A stretch of DNA of 64,000 nt from Streptomyces misionensis (lineage in GTDB: Bacteria > Actinomycetota > Actinomycetes > Streptomycetales > Streptomycetaceae), in the NCBI RefSeq assembly GCF_900104815.1, contig NZ_FNTD01000004.1:3054501-3118500 (forward strand), read 5' to 3'. Position 1 is the first letter of the stretch. Each line of letters begins with the position of its first letter. Positions 53,750 to 62,326 of the stretch are shown here, one piece after another. The notes below the pieces were generated by a model. The model ran no database searches. It was given only the letters and a program-made list of their open reading frames with translations, and had not been told where the DNA came from. The position numbers and the translations under genes are program-made.

Positions 53750-55234
53750 ATGGCGTCGTCTACCGTGACCTCGTCACAGCCCGAGCGGCCACCCCGGCCG
53801 AACCTCGCCTTCCGGCGGCTGCGCGGCCGGCGCTCACCGGCCGAGTTCGCGGCGCTGGTGCGGCGGGCCGCGCGGGAGATCGGTGAGCGGGTGAGCTGTG
53901 ACGCGCGCTACGTCGGGCGGGTCGAGGCGGGTGAGATCCGCTGCCCCAACTACGCCTACGAACGCGTGTTCCTGCACATGTTCCCCGGCCGTACGCTCGC
54001 CGACCTCGGCTTCGCGCCCCGCTCGTCCGTCCGCGGCCGCGCGGCGCGCACGGCCCCGCGGGCGCTCGCCCCGGGCGGGACGGAGCAGGGTGCCGCCTCG
54101 GCGGGGTCCGAGCCGCAGGACCAGCAGGACGCGCAGGACCCGTATGACCCGCACGAGGGATGCGACCCGCAGGGGCCGTACCCGCACGACCATCCGAACC
54201 ACGAGGAGAGCGACGTGCTGCGTCGCGCATTCATGACCGGCGGAGGAGCCACGGTGGCCGCCGCCGCGCTGGGCCCGCTGGGGCTCGCCCCGGACGCCGT
54301 GGCCGCGGCCCTGCCCCCACGCCGGCCCGGGAGCGCCGAGGCGGCGGCCCTGGAGGAGGCCGTCCGCCGGATCCGGCTGCTGGACGACCGGCACGGCGCG
54401 GACGGGCTCTACCGGCGCGCGGCGGCTCCGCTGCGCGCCGCCTACGCGCTGCTGGACGCCGGTGCCACCCGGCAGACCACGGTCGACCGGCTGCACGCGG
54501 GCGCGGGTGAACTCGCCATCTCGGTGGGCTGGCTGGCGCATGACTCCGGCCGCTTCGACGACGCCCGCTCGCACTACGCGGAGGCGCTGGCCACGGCCCG
54601 GATGACCGGAGACGAGGGGCTGGAGGCGCACGCCTTCTGCAACACCGCCTTCCTGGCCCGGGACGCGGGGCGGCCCCGGGAGGCGGTGCGGGCCGCGCAG
54701 GCCGCGCAGCGTGCGGCCCGGGGCCTGGGCTCGGACCGGCTGATGTCCCTGCTGGCGCTGCGGGAGGCGGGCGGCTGGGCGGGGCTGGCCGACCGCACCG
54801 GCTGCGCGCGGGCGCTGGTGCGGGCGCAGGCCCTGTTCGCGCGGGGGCGCTCGGGCGCCGACCCGGAGTGGATGAGCTTCTACGGCGAGGCCGAGCTGGA
54901 GGGCCTGGAGGCGCAGTGCTGGTCCATGCTGGGCGACTGGCGGCGCGCGTCCCGGCACGCGCGGCGGGCGGCGGACCTCCAGGACCCCCACTTCGCGCGG
55001 AACCTCGCGCTGTACACGGCGGAACTGGCCGACGACCTCGCCCGCGAGGGCCGTCCCGACGAGGCGGCGGAGGCGGGGATGCGGGTGCTCTCCCTGCTGG
55101 ACCAGGTCCAGTCCTCCCGCATCCAGACGATGCTGGCGGGCACCGCGCGGGTGCTGCTGCCGCACCGGCGGGCCTCCGGGGTGTCGGACTTCCTGGACCG
55201 CCACAAGGCGCTGCCCCGGGTGGCGGGAGCCTGA
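53750..55234 (+). CDS. HTH/TPR regulator, NsdA-like
   Basis: A 494-residue protein. The N-terminal part (FRRLRGRRSPAEFAALVRRA, then YVGRVEAGEIRCPNYAYERV) is an XRE-like DNA-binding region. A Gln/Asp/Pro-rich linker with many DP repeats spans about residues 115-155. Then LRRAFMTGGGATVAAAALGP, a twin-Arg-like hydrophobic stretch typical of this family, and TPR-like helices to the end (HDSGRFDDARSHYAEALATA, LDRHKALPRV). It resembles NsdA, a negative regulator of Streptomyces differentiation. Targets are unknown. Confidence 0.75.
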   Translation: MASSTVTSSQPERPPRPNLAFRRLRGRRSPAEFAALVRRAAREIGERVSCDARYVGRVEAGEIRCPNYAYERVFLHMFPGRTLADLGFAPRSSVRGRAARTAPRALAPGGTEQGAASAGSEPQDQQDAQDPYDPHEGCDPQGPYPHDHPNHEESDVLRRAFMTGGGATVAAAALGPLGLAPDAVAAALPPRRPGSAEAAALEEAVRRIRLLDDRHGADGLYRRAAAPLRAAYALLDAGATRQTTVDRLHAGAGELAISVGWLAHDSGRFDDARSHYAEALATARMTGDEGLEAHAFCNTAFLARDAGRPREAVRAAQAAQRAARGLGSDRLMSLLALREAGGWAGLADRTGCARALVRAQALFARGRSGADPEWMSFYGEAELEGLEAQCWSMLGDWRRASRHARRAADLQDPHFARNLALYTAELADDLAREGRPDEAAEAGMRVLSLLDQVQSSRIQTMLAGTARVLLPHRRASGVSDFLDRHKALPRVAGA

Positions 55235-56120: not shown

Positions 56121-57056
56121 ATGGCGCAGACCGAGATACCGGGCACCGGGACGGTGCCCCGCACCCGGCTGCGCTGGTGGACCGAACTGCCACTGCTCCT
56201 GCTGGTCTACGGCTGTTACTCGGCCGGCCGCCTCGTCGTGCGCGGTGACGTGGACGACGCCGTCGAGCACGGCCTGACCCTGCTGCGCGCCGAGAAGCTG
56301 CTCCACCTGAACGCCGAGCACCCCCTCAACCGCCTGTTCACCCGCGAGCCCTGGCTCGGGATACCCGCGGACTTCTGGTACGCCTCGCTGCACTACCTGG
56401 TCACGCCCGCGATCCTGGTGTGGCTGTTCCGGTACCGCGCCGAGTACTACCGGCGTGCCCGCACCTGGCTGATGACGTCCACGTTCATCGGCCTGATCGG
56501 CTTCACCCTGGTGCCGACCTGCCCGCCGCGGCTGCTCGCCGCCGGCGAGGGCTTCGTGGACACCATGGCCCACTACAGCGCGTACGGCTGGTGGGGCGGC
56601 GACGCCAGCGCGCCGCGGGGCCTGGGCGGCATGACCAACCAGTACGCGGCCATGCCGAGTCTGCACGTCGGCTGGGCGCTGTGGTGCGGGGTGATGCTGT
56701 GGCGGCACGGCGGCACCCGGCTCACCAAGGTCCTCGCCGTGGTGTACCCGCTGGGCACCGCGCTCGTCGTGATGGGCACCGCCAACCACTATCTGCTGGA
56801 CGCGCTCGCCGGCATCGCCGTGATGGGCGTCGGTCACCTGCTCGCGCCGTGGGTGACGCGGGCCGCCGACCTGGTGCGGGCCCGGCTGTTCCCGGGGTCC
56901 GCGCGGGGCGCGGGTTCCCCGATTGTCAGTGGCGGATGCAAGACTTCCGCGGGTGAGCGAATTCCACGGCAGCGCGAGTCGCGGCCCGGCGCCCCAGCCG
57001 AGCCGGACGCCTCCCCCACCGACGCGGGCGAAGGGGCTCCGGCACCGGCTCGCTGA
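56121..57056 (+). CDS. PAP2-family membrane phosphatase, Aur1-like
   Basis: A 311-residue membrane protein with about six helices. GGGGGAGGA precedes the ATG. The PAP2 motifs are VPTCPPRLL, NQYAAMPSLHVGWALWCG and GTANHYLLDALAG, the pattern of inositol-phosphorylceramide synthase-like members; it may act on a phospholipid or polyprenyl substrate. The last roughly 35 residues are Pro/Arg/Ala-rich and overlap the next gene by 104 nt in another frame, so the true C-terminus carries little family constraint. Confidence 0.88.
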   Translation: MAQTEIPGTGTVPRTRLRWWTELPLLLLVYGCYSAGRLVVRGDVDDAVEHGLTLLRAEKLLHLNAEHPLNRLFTREPWLGIPADFWYASLHYLVTPAILVWLFRYRAEYYRRARTWLMTSTFIGLIGFTLVPTCPPRLLAAGEGFVDTMAHYSAYGWWGGDASAPRGLGGMTNQYAAMPSLHVGWALWCGVMLWRHGGTRLTKVLAVVYPLGTALVVMGTANHYLLDALAGIAVMGVGHLLAPWVTRAADLVRARLFPGSARGAGSPIVSGGCKTSAGERIPRQRESRPGAPAEPDASPTDAGEGAPAPAR

Positions 57057-58179
57057 GCTGCGCGGCCCCGACGTACCGGCGAAGGCCCTGGACGCGCGCG
57101 CCCTCGCGGCGCTGGCCGCGAACCCCGGGTGCCGCAGACGGGCGATCCTGGACGGCGCCGGGGTGGACAAGGCCCGGCTGGCCGACGCGCTGGGCGCGCC
57201 CTCGGCCTTCGGGCAGTCCCAGTTCGCGCTGACCCGGGGCAACGCGTTCGAGGCGAAGGTGAAGGCGGACGGCGGCGCGGAGCTGCTGCGCCTCGCGCAC
57301 ACCCGGCTCGATCCGGGCGCCGAGGCACCCGAGTCGGCGGCGGTGCCCGATCTGACCGCGCCGGGCCCCGAGGGCCGTACGGCGCGCACGGCGCTGGCGC
57401 TGCGGGAGGCGACGCGCGCGGGCGGCTGGACGCTGCTCGACCACCCCATGCTGGCGCTGGACGTGGCGGGCTCGCTCGCGTTCCTGGAACCGGACGCGGT
57501 GGTGGTGCACCCCGACGGCAGCTGGTCGGTGGTGGAGATCAAGTCCTTCCCGATGCTGGACGGTTCGGCGGACCCGGCGAAGGTCGGCGCCGCGGCCCGG
57601 CAGGCGGCGGTGTACGTGCTGGCCCTGGAGGAGGTCGCCGCCCGGCTGGACCCGGCCCCGCGGGTGCGTCACCGGGTGCTGCTGGTGTGTCCCAAGGACT
57701 TCTCCAACCTGCCCGCCGGCAGCGCGGTCGACGTGCGCAAGCAGCGCGCGGTCACCGCGCGGCAGCTCACCCGGCTCACCCGGATCGAGGAGATCGCCGA
57801 CGCGCTGCCCGAGGGCACCTGTTTCGCGCCCGACCGCGGCACCGAGGAACTGACGGCGGCCGTGGCCGCGGTCCCGGCCGCCTACGCGCCCGAGTGCCTG
57901 TCCGCCTGTGAACTGGCCTTCCACTGCCGCGACCGTGCCCGCTCGGCCGGCTCCGTGACCCGGCTCGGCCGCCCGCTGCGCGCCGAACTGGGCGGCCTGA
58001 CCACGGTGGAGGAGGTCCTCGCGGCGGCGCACGGCGTGACCGGCGAAGCGGACGACCCGGCGGTGGCCGCCCTGCGCCGGGCGGCGGCCCTGCGCGCGGA
58101 GGCCCTCCGGGAGGCAGGGCTTCGGGAGACAGGACTTCCGGAGACAGGTCCCGGGGAGGTGGCGCCCGCATGTCGCTGA
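56953..58179 (+). CDS. RecB/Cas4-type nuclease with probable 4Fe-4S cluster
   Basis: A 408-residue protein. GTG 56953 (VSEFHGSAS) is chosen; an earlier in-frame start would add 10 residues. Nuclease motifs: RGNAFE with Glu100, EPDAVVV with Asp181, VEIK with Glu195 and Lys197, and RQAAVYVL matching the RecB QxxxY motif at 217-221. Cys60 before the nuclease core and C315-x3-C319-x5-C325 after it form the split four-cysteine pattern of Cas4, AddB and Dna2 iron-sulfur nucleases. It should cut single-stranded DNA ends. It overlaps the next gene by 10 nt and probably works with it and the helicase. Confidence 0.85.
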   Translation: MSEFHGSASRGPAPQPSRTPPPPTRAKGLRHRLAELRGPDVPAKALDARALAALAANPGCRRRAILDGAGVDKARLADALGAPSAFGQSQFALTRGNAFEAKVKADGGAELLRLAHTRLDPGAEAPESAAVPDLTAPGPEGRTARTALALREATRAGGWTLLDHPMLALDVAGSLAFLEPDAVVVHPDGSWSVVEIKSFPMLDGSADPAKVGAAARQAAVYVLALEEVAARLDPAPRVRHRVLLVCPKDFSNLPAGSAVDVRKQRAVTARQLTRLTRIEEIADALPEGTCFAPDRGTEELTAAVAAVPAAYAPECLSACELAFHCRDRARSAGSVTRLGRPLRAELGGLTTVEEVLAAAHGVTGEADDPAVAALRRAAALRAEALREAGLRETGLPETGPGEVAPACR

Positions 58180-59759
58180 TCGACACCCTGGCCCGGCTGG
58201 AGGCCGTCGGCACCGGCCGGGCCCAGCCCGCCGCCACCGTGCTGCACCGGCACGTCTCCGGGCATCCCCTGGTGTTCGTACCGCTGACCACCGCGGGCGA
58301 GACCGGCGCCCCGCTCGGCGCGCTGGTCGGCACCGACCGGGACGCGCCCCGGCTGCTGGTCGTGCCGCAGCCGCGCGACCGGGAGCTGCGCTTCGCGTTC
58401 CTCGCCGAACTGGCGGACGTGATCCTGCCGTACATCGACTCCTACGCCGGGTCCGTGGAGGCCGCCGAGCGCACCGAGACCGACCCGGAGACCGGCAAGC
58501 GGGTCAAGGTCGAGGTGGAGCTGTGCACGGACGCGCCGCAGCTGATCGTGCCGAGCCGCGCCGGCCTGGAGTTCGTGCGGCTGCTCGGCCGCTCCATGCG
58601 CTTTCGCCGTACGGCCGAGCAGGACCCGCAGGCGCCCTATCCGGCGCCGCCCCGGGTGCCGTTGCTCGGCCGCTGGCTCACCCACTACGGGGAGCGGTCC
58701 CGGGTCCCCGGCTCCGCGCTGCTGCTCGCCCTCACCGACGTGCTGTCCCGGCACTGGGCGACCGGCCAGTCCGGCCTGGAGGACCAGCACCTGGGGGCGC
58801 TGCTGGCGTGGATCGACCCCCCGGCGGGCGACAGCGGCGCCGACGCCGCGCACCGGGCCGAGCTGGCGCGGGACGCGGCCGGGCAGTTGCTGTGCCCGCC
58901 GGCCGGCCCGGCCACCGACCCGGCGTTCGACAACAAGCTGCTGGCCCCGGCGATCGAGCGGTACGACCGGGCGCGCACGGCCCTGGCCGCCGCCGAGGAC
59001 CCGCTGGAAGCCGACGACCGGCTGGCCGCGCTCACCCGGGCCGAGCGGGACGTGCGGGAACTGGTCGAGAGCCGGACCCGGCCCACCTGGGACGCGGTGT
59101 GGCGGGGCCTGGACCTGCTGCGGGCGCTGCCCGAGGGCGCGCATGTGGCGGAGCGCTGGCTGCGGGACCGCTGGTCGTTCACCGGCCACCGGGACCGGGT
59201 GCTGGCCGGGGAACCCCCGCAGCCGCGCCGGGACGACGCGGTGACCGCGGCGAACAAGCTGGCCACGCGCGAGCGCGAACAGGCCCGCCTGGAGGCGCAG
59301 GAGGCACTGGACGATCCGCTGGTGATGGCGGGGCGGCGGCTGGCCGGCGAGGCGTTCGCGGGCGAGGTCACCGAGGTCGTGATGGCGTACAGCGAGGGCA
59401 GACGGCCGAGCCCGCGCCCGCTGGTGACGGTCCGCACCGAGGACCTGCCGCACCTGGCGGAGCGTGCGAAGGTCTACCGCTCGCTGGACGGCCGCCCGCA
59501 GTCGGCGGAGTTCGTGGAGCGGGCCGCAGGGGACGCGGTGGTGCTGCGGATCCTGGACAAGATGGGCCGCGGCAGGGAGCCGGAGCCCGGCTCGGTGCCC
59601 GAGAAGGGGGACCGGGTCTGCTTCACCCTCTTCGAGCACGAGCAGCGCGGCGGGGCGAAGCTGCCCGACCCGGAGGAGACCCCGTGGACCCATGGCGGGC
59701 CGCCCGGCGAGGCGGTGCCGGAGGCCGCCGATCCGATCACCGAGGAGGACGTGCTGTGA
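58170..59759 (+). CDS. Unknown 529-residue partner protein of a nuclease-helicase operon
   Basis: A soluble 529-residue protein that I do not recognise. It begins MSLIDTLARLEAVGTG. The middle is helical and charged (LAALTRAERDVRELVESRTR, ATREREQARLEAQEALDD). The last 130 residues look beta-rich (RPLVTVRTEDLPHLAERAKV, AGDAVVLRILDKMGRG, KGDRVCFTLFEHE), as expected for the beta-barrel that sits before the helicase core in Dna2/Upf1-type enzymes; this is inference. It overlaps the nuclease gene by 10 nt and the helicase gene by 4 nt, so the three are made together. Confidence 0.8.
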   Translation: MSLIDTLARLEAVGTGRAQPAATVLHRHVSGHPLVFVPLTTAGETGAPLGALVGTDRDAPRLLVVPQPRDRELRFAFLAELADVILPYIDSYAGSVEAAERTETDPETGKRVKVEVELCTDAPQLIVPSRAGLEFVRLLGRSMRFRRTAEQDPQAPYPAPPRVPLLGRWLTHYGERSRVPGSALLLALTDVLSRHWATGQSGLEDQHLGALLAWIDPPAGDSGADAAHRAELARDAAGQLLCPPAGPATDPAFDNKLLAPAIERYDRARTALAAAEDPLEADDRLAALTRAERDVRELVESRTRPTWDAVWRGLDLLRALPEGAHVAERWLRDRWSFTGHRDRVLAGEPPQPRRDDAVTAANKLATREREQARLEAQEALDDPLVMAGRRLAGEAFAGEVTEVVMAYSEGRRPSPRPLVTVRTEDLPHLAERAKVYRSLDGRPQSAEFVERAAGDAVVLRILDKMGRGREPEPGSVPEKGDRVCFTLFEHEQRGGAKLPDPEETPWTHGGPPGEAVPEAADPITEEDVL

Positions 59760-61093
59760 CGACCGTCGACGCCGATCCCGGGGCCGCGGCCGCCCGCGCC
59801 ACCGACGCGATCCTCCACGACACGCTGCACGGCACCGAGCGGGGCGTGGTGGTCGACTCCCCGCCGGGTGCCGGGAAGTCCACCCTGGTGGTCCGGGCGG
59901 CGCTGGAACTCGCCGACGCGGGGCGCCCGTTGATGGTGGTGGCGCAGACCAACGCGCAGGTCGACGACCTCGTGCTGCGCCTCGCCGAGAAGAATCCCGA
60001 GCTGCCCGTGGGCCGACTGCACAGCAGCGACGCCGACGCCTACGACAAGGCGCTGGACGACCTGCCGGGCGTGCGCACCTCGGCGAAGGCGGCGGACCTC
60101 GCGGGGCTGCCGGTGGTGCTGTCCACCGCCGCGAAGTGGGCGCACGTGACGGTGGACGAGCCGTGGCGGCACGCGATCGTGGACGAGGCATACCAGATGC
60201 GCTCGGACTCCCTGCTCGCCGTGGCCGGGCTGTTCGAACGGGCGCTGTTCGTGGGCGACCCCGGCCAGCTGGACCCGTTCGCGATCGTCGGCAGCGAGCA
60301 GTGGGCGGGGCTGTCGTACGACCCGTCGGCCTCCGCCGTGACCACCCTGCTGGCGCACAACCCGGGCCTGCCGCAGCACCGGCTGCCGGTCTCCTGGCGG
60401 CTGCCGGCCTCCGCCGCGCCCCTGGTCTCGGACGCGTTCTACCCGTACACCCCCTTCCGCAGCGGCACCGGGCACGGCGACCGCAGGCTGGGCTTCGCCG
60501 TGCCGTCCGACGGTTCGGGCCCGGACCGGGTGATCGACGAGGCCGCCGCGTCCGGCTGGGGCCTGCTGGAGCTGCCCGCCCGGCACACCCAGCGCACCGA
60601 TCCGGAGGCGGTGCGCGCGGTGGCGCTGGTGGTACGGCGCCTGCTGGACCGGGGCGGCGCGGCCGTCTCCGAGCGCTCACCGGAACCGGCTCCCCTCACC
60701 GCCGCCCGGATCGCCGTCGGCACCGCCCACCGCGACCAGGCGGCCGCGGTCCGCTCCGCGCTGGCGGACCTGGGCGTCTTCGAGGTGACGGTCGACACCG
60801 CGAACCGGCTCCAGGGCCGCGAGTACGACGTCACGGTCGTCCTGCACCCGCTGTCCGGCCGCCCCGACGCCACCGCCTTCCACCTGGAGACCGGCCGCCT
60901 GTGCGTCCTGGCCTCCCGCCACCGGCACGCCTGCATCGTGGTCTGCCGCGCCGGCGTGAGCGACCTGCTCGACGACTACCCGTCCACGGAACCGGTCCAG
61001 CTCGGCACGCTGGTGAAGTTCCCGGACGGCTGGGAGGCGAACCACGCGGTCCTCTCCCACCTGGCCGAACACCGGGTGGAGTGGCGGCCGTGA
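59756..61093 (+). CDS. SF1 helicase, Dna2/Upf1-like
   Basis: A 445-residue ATPase starting at GTG 59756 in a GTGA overlap. Walker A is SPPGAGKSTLVV (Lys41); motif II is IVDEAYQM (143-146); motif III is VGDPGQLDPF (167-175); PVSWRLP at 211-217 is the motif IV region; motif V is ANRLQGREYDVTVV (349-362); motif VI is LASRHRHACIVV (385-396). This is a near-minimal SF1B core with no nuclease or Zn domain of its own, consistent with these being supplied by the two upstream genes. It probably translocates on single-stranded DNA or RNA. Confidence 0.88.
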   Translation: MTTVDADPGAAAARATDAILHDTLHGTERGVVVDSPPGAGKSTLVVRAALELADAGRPLMVVAQTNAQVDDLVLRLAEKNPELPVGRLHSSDADAYDKALDDLPGVRTSAKAADLAGLPVVLSTAAKWAHVTVDEPWRHAIVDEAYQMRSDSLLAVAGLFERALFVGDPGQLDPFAIVGSEQWAGLSYDPSASAVTTLLAHNPGLPQHRLPVSWRLPASAAPLVSDAFYPYTPFRSGTGHGDRRLGFAVPSDGSGPDRVIDEAAASGWGLLELPARHTQRTDPEAVRAVALVVRRLLDRGGAAVSERSPEPAPLTAARIAVGTAHRDQAAAVRSALADLGVFEVTVDTANRLQGREYDVTVVLHPLSGRPDATAFHLETGRLCVLASRHRHACIVVCRAGVSDLLDDYPSTEPVQLGTLVKFPDGWEANHAVLSHLAEHRVEWRP

Positions 61094-61709: not shown

Positions 61710-62255
61710 ATGAGCAGTACGCCGAACGTCACCCGCGTCACCCCCGACGGCGCCGCCTGGCTGGCCTCCGCCGGGACGTACCCGCCGTACACGTCCGCCC
61801 CGGCCGCCCTGCCCTGCGGCACCGTCTTCGACGTGGTGAGCGCCCCGGTCGTCTTCGGGCGCCGGATGCTGGACCGCCTGTGGGAGGAGGGCCCCGGTTC
61901 CGGCCCGGTCGCGATGTCCCGCGGCCGGATGCTGCTGTTCTGCGCCCCCGGCACCGCCCACCGGCTGCCCTCGCTGCTGGCCTGGGAGGAGTGGGGCTCG
62001 CACCGGGCGGCGGCGGTACCGCCCCTGCTGTGCCACGGCACGGGCGACGCGGTGACCGTCCCGTCGCCGGACGGCGGCGACACCTGCGGCGGGCCCCGCT
62101 GGGTGGTCGCCCCGGACGCGCGCCGGCCCTGGCTGCCGGGCCCGGAGGTGCTGCTGTGGGCGGCCGTGCGGGCGGCACGCACGGCGGTGCGGATATCGAT
62201 TTTTCCTCCCGCCGACGAGGATGCTAAGGTCTACGACGTCAGCAGGCGCCGCTAG
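61710..62255 (+). CDS. Conserved protein, prim-pol N-terminal-like, ending inside tRNA-Lys
   Basis: A 181-residue protein starting MSSTPNVTRV. Conserved stretches: LPCGTVFDVVSAPVVFGRRM, MLLFCAPGTAHRLPSLLAWE, and a C-terminal WLPGPEVLLWAAVRAART. The fold resembles the N-terminal part of streptomycete primase/polymerase-like proteins, but I see no catalytic motif. Its TAG stop at 62253-62255 lies within the first bases of the tRNA-Lys gene, an unusual 10-nt overlap. Confidence 0.65.
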   Translation: MSSTPNVTRVTPDGAAWLASAGTYPPYTSAPAALPCGTVFDVVSAPVVFGRRMLDRLWEEGPGSGPVAMSRGRMLLFCAPGTAHRLPSLLAWEEWGSHRAAAVPPLLCHGTGDAVTVPSPDGGDTCGGPRWVVAPDARRPWLPGPEVLLWAAVRAARTAVRISIFPPADEDAKVYDVSRRR

Positions 62256-62319
62256 CTCAGTTGGTTAGAGCAGCTGACTCTTAATCAGCGGGTCCGGGGT
62301 TCGAGTCCCTGGCGGCGCA
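62246..62319 (+). tRNA. tRNA-Lys (anticodon CTT)
   Basis: Acceptor GCGCCGC (62246-62252) pairs with GCGGCGC (62312-62318); anticodon stem GCTGA/TCAGC encloses CTCTTAA with anticodon CTT at 62280-62282; T-loop TTCGAGT at 62300-62306; discriminator A at 62319. CCA is not encoded. Confidence 0.96.
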
Positions 62320-62326
62320 CGCGACG

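Follow-up and report, generated by a model that had tools for sequence, protein, structure and literature searches.

The three genes and their predicted products

The stretch of DNA analysed here, referred to as the window, is a 64-kb segment of the Streptomyces misionensis genome. It contains three consecutive genes, together called the trio, for a predicted iron-staple nuclease (NUC), an orphan protein (MID) and a minimal helicase of superfamily 1B (SF1B; HEL). As the initial annotation of the sequence had it, these are three overlapping open reading frames (ORFs); NUC and MID share 10 nucleotides (58170/58179), and MID and HEL share 4 (59756/59759). Where NUC begins is uncertain: from 56923 to 57160 the in-frame starts found are limited to 56923, 56929 and 56953, with none between 56953 and 57163, and all three fall inside the upstream ORF 56121-57056, which NUC overlaps. 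Scans for promoters, terminators and Rfam families returned nothing except two tRNAs. The sequence GAAC-N4-GTTC, a LexA-like box, is absent from the trio operon; its sole match in the window, at 53960, is within chance expectation.

Table 1. Features of the trio and its downstream flank, in window coordinates.
Feature	Coordinates	Strand	Remarks
NUC, 408 amino acids, predicted iron-staple (4Fe-4S) RecB/PD-(D/E)XK nuclease	56953..58179	+	start uncertain, 56923/56929 also possible
C60 codon, first cysteine of the predicted iron-sulfur staple	57130..57132	+	invariant in the 70-row alignment; 120/120
E100 codon, predicted active-site residue	57250..57252	+	49/52; 37/37 where a residue is present; 120/120
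D181 ... E195-I-K197, predicted PD-(D/E)XK active-site residues	57493..57543	+	residue conservation, Cas4 profile match
C315-x3-C319-x5-C325, last three staple cysteines	57895..57927	+	all three in 91/91 by column; x3-x5 spacing in 90/91
MID, 529-amino-acid orphan protein, predicted HEL partner	58170..59759	+	
HEL, 445 amino acids, minimal SF1B helicase with an N-terminal stretch of 37 residues ahead of motif I (GAGKS)	59756..61093	+	
HEL Walker A GAGKS	59867..59881	+	K41 120/120
HEL motif II VDEAY	60179..60193	+	D143 119/120, E144 120/120
HEL motif VI SRHR, within the family signature HP...GRLCV..SRH	60914..60925	+	
DN4, small downstream gene, 138 amino acids	61152..61568	+	probably not part of the trio unit
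tRNA-Lys(CTT), marker of the conserved Streptomyces locus	62246..62320	+	

The residues initially named for the nuclease (E100, D181, E195-x-K197, Q217xxxY221, C60 and C315-x3-C319-x5-C325) are all present in NUC, and each is retained in 120/120 of the closest homologues listed, the sample behind the counts out of 120 in Table 1. They are also conserved in broader sets of 52, 39 and 70 rows. Among 52 homologues, C315, C319, C325 and D181 are found in 52/52, C60 in 51/52 (the remaining residue is X), K197 in 50/52, and E100 and E195 in 49/52 each. A wider scan added 39 further NUC proteins, with the three clustered cysteines and K197 in 39/39, C60 and E100 in 37/37 where a residue is present, D181 in 37/39 and E195 in 33/39. 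The only invariant columns of the 70-row alignment, in which identity to the window protein falls to 23%, are C60, C315, C319, C325 and G339. One cysteine precedes the nuclease core and three follow it. The initial annotation equated this pattern with that of Cas4, which holds for the one-plus-three order but not for the spacing: the columns of the last three cysteines are conserved in 91/91 NUC proteins, with the spacing C-x3-C-x5-C in 90/91 and C-x2-C-x5-C in 1/91, as opposed to C-x2-C-x5-C in 22/22 Cas4 sequences. The AddB and Dna2 spacing is also C-x2-C-x5-C.

The profile of 70 NUC proteins aligns with a Cas4 alignment built for this analysis over D181, EIK and QxxxY (hhalign probability 67.9, E-value 4.8e-5). 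Eight controls (five shuffled versions of NUC, one reversed NUC, MID and HEL) reached probabilities of at most 0.2 in the same comparison. PDDEXK_1 is the commonest Pfam match among the 52 homologues, a weak one found in 11/52 with a best E-value of 0.0025. The window NUC itself has no Pfam, NCBIfam or PADLOC match at an E-value of 1, and the comparison of NUC with PDB sequences returned no nuclease. By its signature, NUC is a predicted iron-staple RecB-type nuclease with an unusual cysteine spacing.

Some NUC proteins depart from this signature. Those of loci L023, L080 and L090 have lost E100 and E195, retain all four cysteines and are still encoded beside MID and HEL; they are apparently nuclease-dead versions, and the retention of the cysteines fits a structural staple. 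Two of them (L023 and L090) are second copies in Streptomyces. Six alphaproteobacterial NUC proteins (L119, L129, L135, L161, L168 and L175) have valine at position 195 and lack Y221, and two of these (L135 and L161) also lack D181. In 5/6 of them a glutamate occupies the position of Q217, perhaps as a migrated catalytic residue or as a sign of decay.

HEL carries the SF1B helicase motifs, in agreement with the minimal SF1 helicase first proposed. The SF1B domain layout includes 1B and stalk domains, for which HEL seemingly has no room, since only 37 residues precede motif I and about 100 separate GAGKS from VDEAY. The HEL profile matches SMUBP-2, DNA2, UPF1 and SEN1 in PDB, and it aligns with the helicase part of TM0106-type proteins, which join a TIGR03491 nuclease to an SF1 helicase, with hhalign probability 99.7. 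The family signature HP-x15-RLCV-x2-SRH is invariant in 38 aligned HEL rows. PADLOC matches of HEL are only to helicase models, which belong to several systems. On these profile matches we place HEL in the Dna2/TM0106 class, as a predicted bare motor of SF1B type. The matches to UPF1, SEN1 and SMUBP-2 could also indicate an Upf1/Sen1-like RNA or RNA:DNA helicase, with the trio acting on R-loops or phage RNA. This is improbable, as HEL is paired with a Cas4-like nuclease signature, Cas4-like nucleases act on DNA, and many of the genes found near the trio have products that act on DNA.

MID belongs to an orphan family. The window protein has no Pfam, NCBIfam or PADLOC match at an E-value of 1, the MID profile has no match among PDB sequences, and 50 homologues gave only scattered weak matches to Pfam. 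Among 78 homologues, P251 and D382 are invariant and 16 more columns are nearly so. A crude scan of secondary-structure propensity was uninformative. The suggestion that MID is a linker or a beta-barrel domain like the 1B domain of Dna2 or Upf1 found no support in a comparison that covered TM0106-type proteins (hhalign probability 0.1, so that MID matches no part of them), Pfam and PDB sequences, the Dna2 and Upf1 domains themselves lying outside it.

Gene order, co-occurrence and joint loss of the trio

MID was found in 70/394 genomes of the class and in 39/40 genomes of its own genus, the source genome counted. HEL, at an E-value of 1e-60, was found in the same 70 genomes and in one more (G939), where it is of a second type described below. 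In the loci read over the phylum, NUC, MID and HEL have one order on one strand in 69/74 rows, several places occurring twice (e.g. L028 and L037). Three of the five exceptions come from one genus (G204 as L021 and L055, G813 as L091), and the other two (L088 and L096) lie at contig ends in genomes that carry HEL on another contig. Loss of the helicase in G204 and G813 was ruled out by finding HEL 36 and 49 kb away (35.9 and 48.7 kb from NUC-MID). In G813, a partial HEL with a stop lies between NUC-MID and the displaced HEL. Elsewhere, 1,350 nucleotides separate MID from HEL in L075, MID is broken in L094, and HEL is split in L072. The genes are rarely separated, as the initial reading would have it; the exceptions are the two genomes of one genus and the one locus with the enlarged MID-HEL gap.

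The same arrangement extends beyond the phylum. A scan for the HEL pattern gave 85 loci, of which 9 of the second type were set aside and 47 with less than 3.3 kb upstream were not judged. NUC, MID and HEL are all present in 28 of the 29 judged loci, the exception being L181; the scan required methionine (RLCVM), which excludes the Streptomyces form, and its counts over phyla are not prevalences. All three genes lie in order on one strand in 25/25 larger regions, taken from 25 of 28 genomes searched and chosen for having HEL, some of which are also among the pattern loci. By their record names, these regions span Actinomycetota, Pseudomonadota, Myxococcota, Thermodesulfobacteriota, Acidobacteriota, Gemmatimonadota, Planctomycetota and Cyanobacteriota. 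Distances between NUC, MID and HEL sequences are correlated at 0.95-0.97 over 70 loci, a level reached by 0/999 permutations; core Streptomyces rows other than the window were left out of this test. Checks of 79 and 86 loci turned up no fused form of the trio proteins. This argues against reading "split" in the initial description as a broken-up Dna2 gene, as does the fact that MID makes up a separate family, some of whose relatives adjoin a HEL relative where no NUC was found.

In Streptomyces the trio occupies a conserved locus. In 8/8 genus loci compared, it is flanked on one side by XRE-TPR and histidine-phosphatase-like genes and on the opposite side by DN4, tRNA-Lys(CTT) and a protease-like gene; a PAP2-like gene is present in 4/8 and DN5 in 6/8. 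The labels XRE-TPR, histidine phosphatase, PAP2 and M6 protease were read from the sequence alone, without a family search. The six core HEL proteins in a quick tree, which carried warnings of long branches, form one clade with support 100. The tree omits 20 loci, most of them partial or of the second type, and L122 was trimmed to its last 440 residues.

The one genome of 40 in the genus without MID (G851) also has no NUC match, and HEL finds only a generic helicase there (E-value 2.9e-8). Its locus was read directly, because an empty search result shows little by itself. The XRE-TPR, histidine phosphatase, PAP2, DN4, DN5, tRNA-Lys and protease genes are all in place, with about 170 nucleotides at the site of the trio. 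That all three genes have gone while the locus around them is intact strongly suggests that they serve one function, and it means that the trio is dispensable in this genome. DN4, which has no Pfam family, was considered as an additional member of the unit and rejected; it is kept in G851 after the loss of the trio, and in L026 it lies about 1.8 kb past HEL.

MID and HEL relatives also occur in a second module. A shorter family of 390-448 amino acids, encoded on actinobacterial plasmids, is related to MID (profile comparison probability 96.1, E-value 3.2e-9, 253 columns), and the MID profile alone reaches its Euzebya member at an E-value of 2.7e-8. On those plasmids the shorter relative sits ahead of a HEL relative, in the order MoxR, VWA, a protein of about 60 amino acids, MID relative, HEL relative, without NUC. 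Loci of this MoxR-VWA module include L110, L202, L205, L325 and L326, together with L203, which lacks MoxR-VWA; they lie on plasmids and contigs of Mycobacterium-like bacteria, Rhodococcus, Xylanimonas and Euzebya. VWA is annotated in L325 and MoxR is not; the Euzebya locus has neither. In 13 module loci, some of them cut short, NUC was found in 0/13, an upstream MoxR in 6/13 and VWA in 7/13. The HEL of G939 is of this type. A HEL query of a plasmid collection matched 44 records, 26 of them from Rhodococcus; those of the NUC type include at least the records from Streptomyces and Nonomuraea. Because MID and HEL relatives recur without NUC in the MoxR-VWA module, the MID-HEL pair appears to be the constant element and NUC the exchangeable one, and for this reason we infer that MID acts as the partner of the helicase.

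The module loci without NUC show that the parts are not all inseparable, as would be expected if three unrelated genes merely shared an operon. That explanation is nevertheless close to refuted by the joint presence and joint loss of the genes, by an order kept over eight phyla, and by the retention of HEL where it has been displaced. The prediction of a single Dna2-like machine made of separate chains thus has considerable support, and the core of the initial proposal, an iron-staple nuclease and an SF1B helicase in one unit for repair or defence, agrees with the residues, co-occurrence, gene order and joint loss.

Neighbouring genes outside the core locus

Outside the core Streptomyces locus, the trio often lies among genes of defence systems. 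Wadjet genes follow it directly on the 3' side on two Streptomyces plasmids (L204 and L324). In L083, the second copy of G965, which lies about 15 kb from a contig end, Wadjet JetA-C follow the trio with one helicase gene between. SbcD/SbcC adjoins the trio in L024, L081, L082, L083, L089 and L204. A protein of 917-1007 amino acids, with a UvrD helicase and a C-terminal PDDEXK_1 domain (Pfam matches of the L272 member), recurs beside the trio in L271, L272, L273, L275 and L277.

A fourth gene of about 280 amino acids (L204:5395-6240 and homologues) directly precedes NUC in 28 loci, namely 20 actinobacterial ones, of which five are Streptomyces second copies, and 8 from Alphaproteobacteria and others, at 31-40% identity. 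It has no Pfam match above the cut-off and no PADLOC match. It was found in 2/13 genomes tested and in 0/8 of the own genus, so that the core Streptomyces set does not include it. The genes of L284-L287 run from an Xre antitoxin through a RES toxin, a DNA methylase and the fourth gene to NUC, MID and HEL (Pfam names from L286).

For 20 non-core loci, the 117 nearest ORFs match 195 PADLOC families, compared with 47 for 120 control ORFs (1e-10); the figures are families matched, not proteins, and related helicase models inflate both sides. The controls were 20 manually positioned stretches, one for each genome and on the same contig as its locus. The home-made gene caller overlooked some of the trio genes detected by profile search. 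Among the first 25 Pfam families shown per scan, the loci have DNA methylase (6), UvrD (5) with PDDEXK_1 (4), RES (4), Xre (4), integrase (3), GmrSD (2), type III endonuclease (2) and SbcC (2). Transporters and metabolic enzymes appear instead in the controls. The enrichment holds for the set of 20 loci, and not every locus has a defence neighbour. Among viral contigs we found one partial HEL, with no NUC or MID in its 10.5-kb locus; viral contigs searched with HEL relatives, and phage records searched with HEL at 1e-10, gave no match.

These neighbourhoods bear on the possibility that the trio is purely a chromosomal repair system everywhere, used for end resection or for processing of flaps or stalled forks like Dna2 or AddAB, with the defence genes hitch-hiking. 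Its presence in 39/40 genomes of the genus, the position beside tRNA-Lys in 8/8 loci and the single clade of the six core tree rows would suit such a role, as would the function of DNA2, a replication and repair enzyme according to PMC7430649. We consider this explanation unlikely, though not remotely so, given the patchy occurrence elsewhere, the plasmid copies, the recurrent restriction, Wadjet and toxin-antitoxin neighbours, the clean loss in one genome of the genus and the operon without a GAAC-N4-GTTC box.

Related systems and proposed function

The nearest comparison is with Dna2 and Bad. In PMC7430649, Bad and DNA2 are described as single-chain 5'-to-3' motors with an iron-sulfur nuclease domain, and Bad, a bacterial Dna2-like helicase-nuclease, as rare and sporadically distributed. 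The trio shares with them the iron-staple RecB nuclease signature of four conserved cysteines and the SF1B helicase, and HEL matches residues 645-981 of the DNA2 chain (5eaw). Unlike Dna2 and Bad, which are one chain, the trio has its nuclease and helicase in separate ORFs in every locus checked; it also differs in the x3-x5 cysteine spacing, in the orphan MID and in a helicase with just 37 residues before motif I. TM0106-type proteins are likewise single chains, with open frames of 1131-1176 amino acids in five of the six best loci; their alignment was built from 8 of 9 fetched loci, one of which (L261) is probably in the wrong frame.

Other relatives share single parts of the trio. The core residues D, E-x-K and QxxxY and the four-cysteine order of NUC are those of Cas4 (PF01930; PMC3466216), but Cas4 works without MID or HEL. 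AddAB is also a multi-chain machine of helicase and iron-staple nuclease. The nuclease of AddB forms one domain within a large chain, unlike NUC, a separate protein of 408 amino acids. The PLuB helicase-like protein (NF040671) and Mokosh MkoA/MkoC are the best-scoring named relatives of HEL in NCBIfam/PADLOC and belong to the same superfamily; their profiles have 1112-1256 positions, of which HEL matches part, and do not match NUC or MID. No paper on PLuB was found in the open-access literature. Among known anti-phage systems (PADLOC-DB 2.0.0) the trio matches no one system, and NUC and MID of L119 and L165 have no match at 0.01. No description of the trio was found in the open-access literature with the few terms tried, which is weak evidence of novelty.

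We propose that the trio is one DNA-processing machine, built like Dna2 and Bad but from separate chains; on balance we think this probable. Sequence comparison supports the class of the motor, the signature of the nuclease and the existence of one unit; the polarity, the role of MID, the target and the existence of a complex are what we infer from it. HEL would be an ATP-driven motor, most likely a 5'-to-3' translocase on single-stranded DNA, as its SF1B class suggests. MID, as the partner of the motor, would probably provide surfaces for binding or guiding DNA, which are missing from the bare motor. By analogy with Bad and DNA2, HEL with MID would pull single-stranded DNA from an end or flap and feed it to NUC, whose residues suggest that it cuts such DNA. 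In many bacteria, to judge from the neighbouring genes, the trio may act in defence islands on foreign or aberrant DNA ends, with phage or plasmid DNA as the likely target. The Streptomyces core copy, in a fixed chromosomal locus, may serve DNA-end repair or standing defence.

Several observations weigh against this proposal. The trio is patchy over the class (70/394 genomes), the defence role is suggested through guilt by association, and none of the core-locus neighbours looks like a defence gene when judged by eye, without a scan of family libraries. The alignment of NUC with the TM0106 nuclease is weak (probability 9.2), with the cysteine clusters in register. The best PDB matches of the NUC profile, 4rv1 (E-value 5.9e-11) and 4hxt (1.8e-7), are designed repeat proteins; they were discarded as repeat accumulation, because each of the nine single repeat matches of 4rv1 and the five of 4hxt has an E-value of 9 or worse. 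Finally, some NUC proteins look dead or altered (L023, L080, L090 and the six rows with valine at position 195), so that cutting cannot be the whole function everywhere.

In a broader view, MID and HEL may form a widespread, undescribed two-protein motor cassette that is plugged into different effectors; we hold the case for this to be evenly balanced. One effector would be the iron-staple nuclease, giving a Dna2 in separate chains that is spread over eight phyla, frequently inside defence islands and frequently preceded by the fourth gene; the other would be the MoxR-VWA pair of actinobacterial plasmids. Streptomyces would then have made the nuclease form a core chromosomal locus.

What appears to be new here is a Dna2-like activity that would be divided among separate chains, with the orphan MID as a partner. 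Compared with the rare and sporadic Bad, its three-chain counterpart is present in nearly all genomes of its own genus, and complete loci occur in eight phyla, with two of the three proteins, NUC and MID, lacking a Pfam, NCBIfam or PADLOC name. Separate chains would allow the roles of nuclease, motor and partner to be studied apart, which is hard in a single chain. Should the island copies act in defence, the core locus of Streptomyces would exemplify a defence machine that has become fixed in the chromosome.

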